64,000 nt of DNA. Origin: Aeromicrobium sp. 9AM. Its GTDB lineage: Bacteria > Actinomycetota > Actinomycetes > Propionibacteriales > Nocardioidaceae. Positions within the stretch are counted from its first letter, which is position 1, and every line of letters begins with the position of its first letter. Made by a program: the position numbers and the translations under genes. Positions 13,116 to 21,457 of this stretch are shown piece by piece. The notes below the pieces were generated by a model, which saw nothing but the letters and a program-made list of their open reading frames with translations, ran no database searches and had not been told where the DNA came from. The DNA is taken from the NCBI RefSeq assembly GCF_902506105.1, contig NZ_LR733304.1, positions 2,031,458 through 2,095,457 on the forward strand. The letters run 5' to 3'.

Positions 13116-13198
13116 TCGATTCCCGGCAGCTCCACGACGAAGGACCTCCGCCCAGTGGGCGGAGGTCCTGTCTTCGTCGTGGAGCTGCCGGGAATCGA
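13116..13198. repeat. Mirrored copy of the tmRNA 3' end enclosing its terminator
   Basis: Arms of 27 bp (13116-13142 and 13172-13198) are perfect inverted repeats. The right arm is the tmRNA T-arm/acceptor 3' end itself. Inside them a 13-bp stem (13141-13153 with 13157-13169, loop AGT) forms the terminator. Together this makes a nearly continuous 38-bp palindrome with a 4-base bulge (13169-13172 region). Confidence 0.85.
13141..13169 (-). terminator. ssrA terminator hairpin
   Basis: AGGACCTCCGCCC at 13141-13153 pairs perfectly with 13157-13169 across a 3-base loop. It lies 11 bases beyond the tmRNA 3' end in the direction of transcription. It is followed on the minus strand by TTCGTCGT, a weak T-rich stretch. 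Confidence 0.75.
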
Positions 13199-19256: not shown

Positions 19257-19946
19257 CTAGTTCTGGTAACCGTAGATGCCGCGGGCCTCGTCACGGACGA
19301 TGAGTCCGTTGTCGAGCTCGATGACGCGCTTGCGCATCTGGTCGACGATCGACGAGTCGTGCGTGGCCATGACCACGGTGGTGTCGGTGCGGTTGATCCG
19401 GTCGAGCAGCTTCATGATGCCGACGCTGGTGGCGGGGTCGAGGTTTCCGGTCGGCTCGTCGGCGATGAGGATCATCGGCCGGTTGACGAACGCGCGAGCC
19501 ACGGCGACGCGCTGCTGCTCGCCACCCGACAGCTCGTCGGGCATGCGGTGCCCCTTGCCCTCGAGGCCGACCATCTCGAGCGTCTCGGGGACGAGCTTGT
19601 TGATCTCGCTGCGCGACTTGCCGATGACCTGCAGCGCGAACGCGACGTTCTCGGTCACGGTCTTGTTGGGCAGCAGGCGGAAGTCCTGGAACACCGTGCC
19701 GACCTGGCGGCGCAGCTTGGGCACCTTCCAGCTCGACAGCTTGTTGATCTCCTTGCCTGCGACGTAGACGCGCCCGGTCGTGGGGCGGGCCTCGCGGAGG
19801 ATCAGGCGCAGGAACGTCGACTTGCCCGAACCGGAGGAGCCGACAAGGAAGACGAACTCGCCCTTCTCGATCTCCAGGTCGACGGCGTCGAGCGCAGCGC
19901 GCTTCTGGCCGGGGTAGGTCTTGGTGACCTTGTCGAATCGAATCAC
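19257..19946 (-). CDS. ftsE: Cell division ATP-binding protein FtsE
   Basis: 229 aa. Walker [11 protein letters not shown]-loop FQDFRLL, signature [14 protein letters not shown], Walker [13 protein letters not shown] and H-loop ATHD are intact, and the N-terminus [12 protein letters not shown] is typical FtsE. The GTG at 19946 gives the family length; longer upstream in-frame sequence runs into a long inverted repeat and is rejected. First gene of the ftsE-ftsX-M23 hydrolase set. Confidence 0.95.
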
Positions 19947-19991: not shown

Positions 19992-20252
19992 GCCTAGGTG
20001 TACCCGGTCAGGACGTTGGTAGCGGGAATGGCTTGACGTGAACGAGAACCTCCGGGTGGGGTGTGGCTTGTCGAAGGCCCACATCCACCACGGAGGTTCT
20101 CGTGTCCCACGGTAATGCTCGCACCGCATTACCGTGGGACACGAGAACCTCCGTGGTGGATGTGGGCCTTCGACAAGCCACACCCCACCCGGAGGTTCTC
20201 GTTCACGTCAAGCCATTCCCGCTACCAACGTCCTGACCGGGTACACCTAGGC
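19992..20252. repeat. Perfect 127-bp inverted repeat (261-bp palindrome with 7-base loop)
   Basis: Arms 19992-20118 and 20126-20252 are exact reverse complements, checked base by base; the loop is TCGCACC. Each arm also contains its own 13-bp inverted pair, ACGAGAACCTCCG at 20042 and 20141 with its complement at 20091 and 20190, and a GGCTTGTCGAAGGCC core. The right end includes the stop codon of the upstream clpP gene. No transposase and no flanking direct repeat are seen. This covers the whole ftsE upstream gap; the remainder holds no gene. Confidence 0.97.
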
Positions 20253-20849
20253 CGCCACAGCCGTACGCCGTTGCAGCACCTCGTCGGCCAGCCCGTACGC
20301 GATGGCCGCCTCAGCGGCGAACACGCGATCGCGGTCTGTGTCGGCACGCAGCGCCTCGACTGTCTGGCCCGTGTGGCTCGACAGGATCGACTCGATCGCG
20401 GCGCGGATGCGGACGACCTCGTCGGCTTGCAGGATGAGGTCGGGGATCGCGCCGCGGCCCTGGACCGCAGGCTGGTGGAGGACGACCCTGCTGTGCGGCA
20501 GCACCGAGCGGCGCCCGGGCTCACCGGCGGCGAGCAGCACGGCGCCGGCGGCGATGGCCTGACCGACGCAGGTCGTGGCCACCGGAGCCTGGATGAACTG
20601 CATCGTGTCGTAGATCGCCAGCATCGCGGTCTCGTCGCCGCCCTCGCAGTTGATGTAGAGGTTGATCTCCTGGCCGGGGCCGTCCGCCTCGAGGTGCAGC
20701 AGCTGGGCGATCAAAGCATTGGCGACGCCCGAGTCGATGCCGGTGCCGAGGTAGATGATGCGCTCCGCGAGCAGGTGCGAGTAGACGTCCATGACCCGCT
20801 CACCCCGCGGGTGCTGCGCGATGACGTTGGGGATCGTGTAGCTGCTCAT
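20247..20849 (-). CDS. ClpP-family subunit with Ala at the catalytic Ser position
   Basis: 200 aa, ClpP fold throughout. His125 (VVLHQP) and Asp174 (TDRDRVF) are in place, but the residue expected to be the nucleophile, 25 before the His, is Ala100 in [11 protein letters not shown] where active ClpP has GQAxSMG. The codon is GCC. It should be catalytically inactive, like plastid ClpR or some secondary actinobacterial ClpP paralogues, and would act only in a mixed ring with its partner. Start ATG 20849 overlaps the partner stop (ATGA). Its stop lies inside the long inverted repeat. Confidence 0.9.
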
Positions 20850-21457
20850 GCGTTGACCCCCATCGCGAGGTGCTTCCGGGTCGGCATGACCTGCTCGAAG
20901 TTGTCGACGATGGCGTCGACGAAGCCGTAGTCGACAGCCTCCTGGGCGGTGTACCACCGGTCGCGCAGGGAGTCCTCGAAGATCCGCTCGACCGGTTGCC
21001 CGGTGTCCTCGGCGATGATCCCGAGCACCGTGTCGCGGGTGTAGCGCAGGTCCTCGGCCTGCAGCTCGACGTCGACCGCGGATCCACCGATGCCGGCCGA
21101 CCCCTGGTGCATGAGGATCCGCGAGTGCGGCAGGGCGTATCGCTTGCCCTTCGTCCCTGACGACAGCAGGAACTGTCCGGCGCTGCACGCGAGGCCCAGC
21201 GCCAGGGTCGCGACGTCGCACGGCACCAGCTTCATGACGTCGCGGATCGCGAGCATCGACGGCACGGAGCCGCCCGGCGAGTGGATCCAGAGCACCGCAT
21301 CCGCGACCGGGTCCTCAGCCGCCAGCGAGAGCAGCTGGGTCGCCAGGAGCGTGCCGTTGTCGTCGTCGAGGGCCCCATCGAGCACAAGGACGCGTCGGTG
21401 CAGCAGCTGTTGCCGCATCTGTCCGGAGAAGAGAGTGGTCTTGTCGTTGTCAGCCAT
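20846..21457 (-). CDS. clpP: ATP-dependent Clp protease proteolytic subunit
   Basis: 203 aa. The full triad is present with the same spacing as E. coli ClpP: Ser92 (ACSAGQF), His117 (ILMHQG) and Asp166 (LRDRW). HSPGGSV supplies the oxyanion hole. With the overlapping downstream gene it makes a ClpP pair; Streptomyces has both a main clpP1P2 and a secondary clpP3P4 pair, and this one, not beside tig or clpX, looks more like a secondary pair. Start ATG 21457; promoter not identified. Confidence 0.92.

Follow-up and report, generated by a model that had tools for sequence, protein, structure and literature searches.

The perfect 127-bp palindrome between a clpP-like gene and ftsE in the assembly of Aeromicrobium sp. 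9AM is very probably an assembly artifact: by sequence comparison, it would be the head-to-head join of two left ends of an IS481-family insertion sequence (IS) that belong to separate chromosomal insertions. Most likely, the palindrome is not a real genomic feature, and its pieces are ordinary IS481 left ends. Such an origin removes a stable palindrome that would otherwise seem “impossible,” and it yields a simple test for recognizing a palindrome as a join: the arm equals the assembler’s k, the arm is an IS end, and the flanks lie apart in relatives. It would also mean that the 2.98-Mb scaffold is misjoined at several IS copies and that its gene order, for instance clpP beside ftsE, should not be trusted.

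We refer to the whole stretch of DNA analyzed, 64,000 nucleotides, as the window. A sequence-only reading of it had described an inverted repeat without a single mismatch and with a 7-base loop, and this description is accurate: the arms pair at 127 of 127 positions, the first mismatch is the 128th pair, and the loop has the length given (Table 1). The chance expectation for a 127-bp inverted repeat, computed from the base composition of the window, is about 10^-63 in the window, and the palindrome is the longest of the nine inverted repeats found there (at least 24 nt, spacing up to 1.5 kb). Another perfect inverted repeat in the window has arms of 27 nt (13116-13142 and 13172-13198) and a loop of 29 nt. 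The hairpins described inside the two arms are present, as is the clpP stop codon in the right end, a TAG on the minus strand (20247-20249) at the right outer edge of the repeat. The location between clpP and ftsE is correct for the assembly but probably not for the chromosome, since the flanks lie apart in relatives and their native neighbors are elsewhere.

Table 1. Coordinates of the palindrome, its assigned components, and the flanking genes in the window
Feature	Position	Strand	Basis
Left arm of inverted repeat, 127 nt	19992..20118	+	pairing
Loop TCGCACC, 7 nt, corresponding to bases 121-127 of the assigned IS left end; ftsE-side copy only	20119..20125	.	end comparison
Right arm of inverted repeat, 127 nt	20126..20252	-	pairing
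ftsE	19257..19946	-	TIGR02673
clpP-like gene, Clp protease family, Ala at the catalytic-Ser position	20247..20903	-	PF00574
Assigned IS481-family left end, ftsE side, exactly 127 nt; same break base as C7:2195361 (L007), which is followed by N	19999..20125	+	own-genome comparison
Assigned copy of the same left end, clpP side, 120 nt (127 with 7 shared outer bases, GCCTAGG)	20126..20245	-	own-genome comparison
CCTAGG, NCTAGN-type target repeat of the ftsE-side insertion; partner at C7 ~1,015,960 (L063)	19993..19998	.	
CCTAGG, target repeat of the clpP-side insertion; partner at C7:121-126 (L064); contains the clpP stop codon	20246..20251	.	
GTG start and first 8 codons of a predicted truncated IS481 transposase (MSHGNART); mirror copy from 20142 on the minus strand	20102..20125	+	
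Predicted IS leader hairpin, ftsE-side copy	20042..20103	+	folding, conservation
Predicted IS leader hairpin, clpP-side copy	20141..20202	-	conservation
GGAGG, Shine-Dalgarno-like, in the hairpin's 3' strand; mirrored at 20148-20152 on the minus strand	20092..20096	+	

Each arm is identified by its sequence as the left end of an IS481-family insertion sequence, on the basis of the ends, CTAG flanks, and transposase frames of copies in relatives and of the IS481 score of one full-length product. The arm was matched in 57 of 294 genomes of the family, and 13 of the relatives’ copies were inspected in their surroundings. Both element ends were found in 12 of these 13, with lengths of 1072-1090 bp, tips of the form TGT.../...ACA, and CTAG flanks. 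Seven copies have identical flanking hexamers, four have hexamers that differ by one base, and one has hexamers that differ by two, with CTAG retained in all 12. The start-codon pattern is fitted by 10 of the 13 copies, eight of which carry open frames of 318-324 aa beginning GTG-TCC-CAC (the other two are shorter, at 188 and 148 aa). The full-length product, L022, scores above the cut-off of the NCBI IS481 model NF033577 (E = 8.6e-93) and also matches Pfam PF13011 (IS481 leucine-zipper) and rve_3 (integrase-core). In both arms, the CTAG target lies outside the tip and the first transposase codons lie inside it; from the tip at 19999 (20245 on the other strand), the layout runs through the leader hairpin to the GTG at 20102, eight codons, and the break. 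The terminal inverted repeats, TGT...ACA, have the left tip TGTACCCGGTCAGG and the right tip TGTACTCGGCCATCAGG in the strain’s own genome, and CCTAGG, a target duplication of the NCTAGN type, is found at the left and right ends of both the ftsE and the clpP insertions. At full length, this element (IS-A) is absent from the strain’s assembly, and its length of ~1.1 kb is taken from the relatives.

These features are shared with described members of the IS481 family, namely ISLxc2 of Leifsonia xyli, ISRe46 of Rhodococcus equi, and IS481 of Bordetella pertussis, which are alike in their NCTAGN repeats, a length of ~1.1 kb, and a single transposase; NCTAGN target repeats appear in passages of PMC2516522, PMC6794481, and PMC3053399, respectively. 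Passages of PMC2516522 give ISLxc2 as 1,105 bp with tips ending CAGGGACGTTGGT, and its tip TGTGTTTCTCAGGGACGTTGGT is resembled by the tips TGT...CAGGACGTTGG here. Unlike these elements, the window has only two left ends of 120-127 nt and lacks both the transposase body and the right end.

A search of the strain’s own genome with one arm returned six matches: the two arms, a 127-nt copy at C7:2195361-2195487 (L007), and three weak matches that represent an internal repeat of the arm itself. We then compared 12 IS ends in this genome, drawn from two related elements, IS-A and IS-B, and measured break length from the first base at which copies become identical. Two of the 12 ends are those of a complete IS-B copy (C7:1,596,226), and the remaining 10 are broken. 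Exactly 127 shared bases are present at seven of the 10 broken ends: both arms, the L007 copy (followed by N), the 127 bases at either end of contig C7, and both halves of a junction at C6:121,408. This junction (L065, 1409-1662) comprises 254 nt, 127 + 127, in which an IS-B left end meets an IS-A right end with no N, and it is likely a second misjoin, made independently, end to end and again without N. From the constant 127 at unrelated contig ends, we infer a de Bruijn assembly run with k = 127. The value 127 is the largest k offered by a common assembler. Outside the IS tip, the palindrome flanks share GCCTAGG, which the third copy lacks. These two copies thus become identical 7 bases before the third joins them, and the arms accordingly measure 127 and the loop 7.

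A joint search for the two halves of the window, one with ftsE and one with clpP, covered 49 genomes of the genus, the strain’s own included. Both halves matched at 88-95% identity in three relatives: ftsE and clpP lie at 3,613,794 and 2,676,464 in G112, at 2,652,896 and 1,095,252 in G109, and on contigs 1 and 3 in G115. Two further relatives, G106 and G157, carry the clpP half (76% and 73%) on a different contig from ftsE; the remaining clpP-half matches, among those listed, have at most 70% identity, look like paralogues, and were not counted. No relative with a good match to both flanks has ftsE next to clpP. The neighbor of ftsE across the CTAG in G112 and G109 corresponds to C7 ~1,014,500-1,015,960 of the strain’s own genome, and that of clpP corresponds to C7:128 onward. 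Both of these native neighbors adjoin, in the strain’s own genome, the IS right end TGTACTCGGCC (right tip TGTACTCGGCCATCAGG), with CCTAGG in between, and uninterrupted (empty) sites are seen in G112 and G109, the ftsE site of G112 reading CCTAGT. The recurrence of CCTAGG alone is weak evidence, as this hexamer is its own reverse complement and a usual target; it is the native neighbors that carry the argument.

Markers along the scaffold bear on the order of these pieces. The marker at C7:250,000 falls inside the clpP-ftsE interval of G112, those at C7:1,500,000 and C7:2,700,000 fall outside it, and those at C7:500,000 and C7:750,000 have no orthologous match in G112. Based on two segment ends and one marker, the true order is likely clpP - IS - (segment now C7:1-1,016,000) - IS - ftsE. 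The flanks of the third copy, that of the L007 left end and that of the right end on C6, are not brought together by position in G112 and G109. Both carry CCTAGT, and they face each other across 250 kb in G112 and 361 kb in G109; either they are wrongly paired or the region is different.

The ClpP-like protein encoded at the right edge of the palindrome reads GQAIAAGA, with Ala at the position of the usual catalytic Ser. This Ala is no error of the strain’s own assembly, because the same residue is found in G112 and G109, where the Ala-form protein adjoins a ClpP that keeps Ser (LACSAGQ).

The origin that we propose draws on the observed arm identity, break lengths, native neighbors, repeats, and empty sites. 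On this view, an ordinary IS481-family insertion lies upstream of ftsE, and another, separate from it, at the stop codon of clpP, both in CCTAGG targets. A short-read assembly on de Bruijn graphs, with a k of presumably 127, would have collapsed the two, and each contig entering the multicopy IS would have stopped after one k-mer of shared sequence. In a putative later joining step, the ftsE-side end, with its 127 IS bases, would have been abutted head to head and without overlap to the clpP-side end, whose 127 shared bases include 120 of the IS. Since the same IS end terminates both contigs, their join would resemble a perfect palindrome of 127 bp around a 7-nt loop. An assembly artifact was among the options of the sequence-only reading, and it is supported by the break lengths and native neighbors; the strand switching invoked there is not, as k-mer-length contig ends at IS copies would instead have been joined end to end. 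A case study of Porphyromonas gingivalis (PMC5771137) concerns short-read repeat-induced misassembly with joins at collapsed insertion-sequence copies, as here, but the present join differs in being head to head and in mimicking a perfect palindrome. Besides the third-copy flanks, two observations count against this origin. Three of the 10 broken ends (the right ends of L007, L009, and the ftsE side) extend to 227 bases, 100 beyond 127, before an N, the ftsE-side right end reaching 227 with its 5 shared outer bases included. The palindrome join also has no N, unlike the L007 break. Neither these 100 extra bases, nor the missing N, nor the third-copy flanks favor a real palindrome.

A real palindrome could have formed if an IS-mediated rearrangement in this strain, by recombination or breakage of two inverted IS copies on either side of a long segment, had fused two left ends and moved the remainder elsewhere. 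Both flanks are genuine IS insertion sites whose left ends point at each other, and IS481 copies drive rearrangements in Bordetella, according to the abstract of PMC11774165. However, the breakpoints would need exactly 127 shared bases, just as at the unrelated C7 start, C7 end, C6 junction, and L007, and homologous recombination of inverted copies leaves every left end with a right end. We consider such a rearrangement very improbable.

Far smaller still, and close to nil, is the probability of a MITE-like nonautonomous element made of two left ends, for all that inverted ends with CTAG targets at the flanks would suit one. A MITE is expected in several copies, but the strain’s own genome has no second palindromic copy: the left end occurs at three places, two being the arms, and the palindromic form occurs at one. 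Moreover, the flanks are two different loci in relatives, which leaves no single target site. The suggestion of a nonautonomous mobile element was right in that the arms are mobile-element ends, but the element itself appears to be an autonomous IS481-type IS that was shortened by assembly. Strong hairpin potential and an intergenic position would suit a terminator or cruciform insulator acting between the two genes. We discount this reading just as nearly completely, since clpP and ftsE are not neighbors in relatives, the structure between them is not seen elsewhere among the matches listed from the 49 genus genomes, and the arms are fully explained as left ends of the IS, start codons of the transposase included.

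Comparison of left-end sequences indicates that the inner hairpin is real and part of the IS, that it pairs with the transposase Shine-Dalgarno sequence, and that it is conserved, showing compensatory changes at two pairs. The RNA of positions 20038-20112 folds at -48.8 kcal/mol (z = -5.85; none of 200 shuffles as low), and the GGAGG in the 3' strand of the stem stands 5 bases ahead of the GTG start. Our data set began with 59 loci with a left-end match, 50 of them long enough and 46 distinct, or 47 sequences with the window copy. The hairpin pattern was fitted by 44 of the 47, in 31 distinct forms, and 30 of these were aligned, the exception being the L018 form, which has one base different at its end. 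Outside the pattern are L087, with the same hairpin and a TTG start, and L084 and L096, in which no transposase start was seen. The pattern demanded a GGAGG-like 3' strand, and the invariance of those columns is partly due to this selection. Across the 30 aligned forms, 95.0% of cells in the 12-bp outer stem are paired, compared to 37-56% in slid controls. Two-sided changes at two pairs, G-C/A-U and the next A-U/G-C, account for 17 cells versus a shuffled mean of 5.8 (none of 500 as high), although a small number of events passed on to many sequences may lie behind the changed cells. The covariation score is 0.148 versus 0.085, and two of the five measures are not above the shuffles: pairs with two-sided changes (2 versus 2.1) and further pair types (4 versus 6.1). 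IS-B has its own version of the hairpin, GAAGACCTCC...GGAGGTCTTC.

The leader hairpins of IS10 and IS50 pair the transposase ribosome-binding site and guard its translation. The hairpin described here likewise pairs that site within the leader RNA; it differs in that the element is of the IS481 type and the guard function is predicted. By this analogy, the leader hairpin is plausibly a translation guard that would be expected to keep transposase translation low. We tentatively suggest, with some doubt outweighing our confidence, that a leader hairpin is conserved in this IS481-family group, sequesters the Shine-Dalgarno sequence of the transposase, and would make transcripts from outside the element untranslatable. 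Our literature searches turned up no description of a Shine-Dalgarno-burying leader hairpin for IS481, and the passages of PMC5006887 concern Hfq and IS10.

Two further observations concern IS-B. Its complete copy (G000 C7:1,596,226-1,597,357; L010, L052) lies between an N and 100 N; ~100 nt of its left flank are also present at C6:121,408, and the sequence on either side of it shares CCCATCGACCC, as if a contig had been placed where no IS exists. At C7:2,305,830 of the same genome (L009, 1735), an IS-B right end is followed by an N and then, as read by eye, by the apparent start of another transposase (MPAAKRYTTEQIVAKLR on the minus strand).
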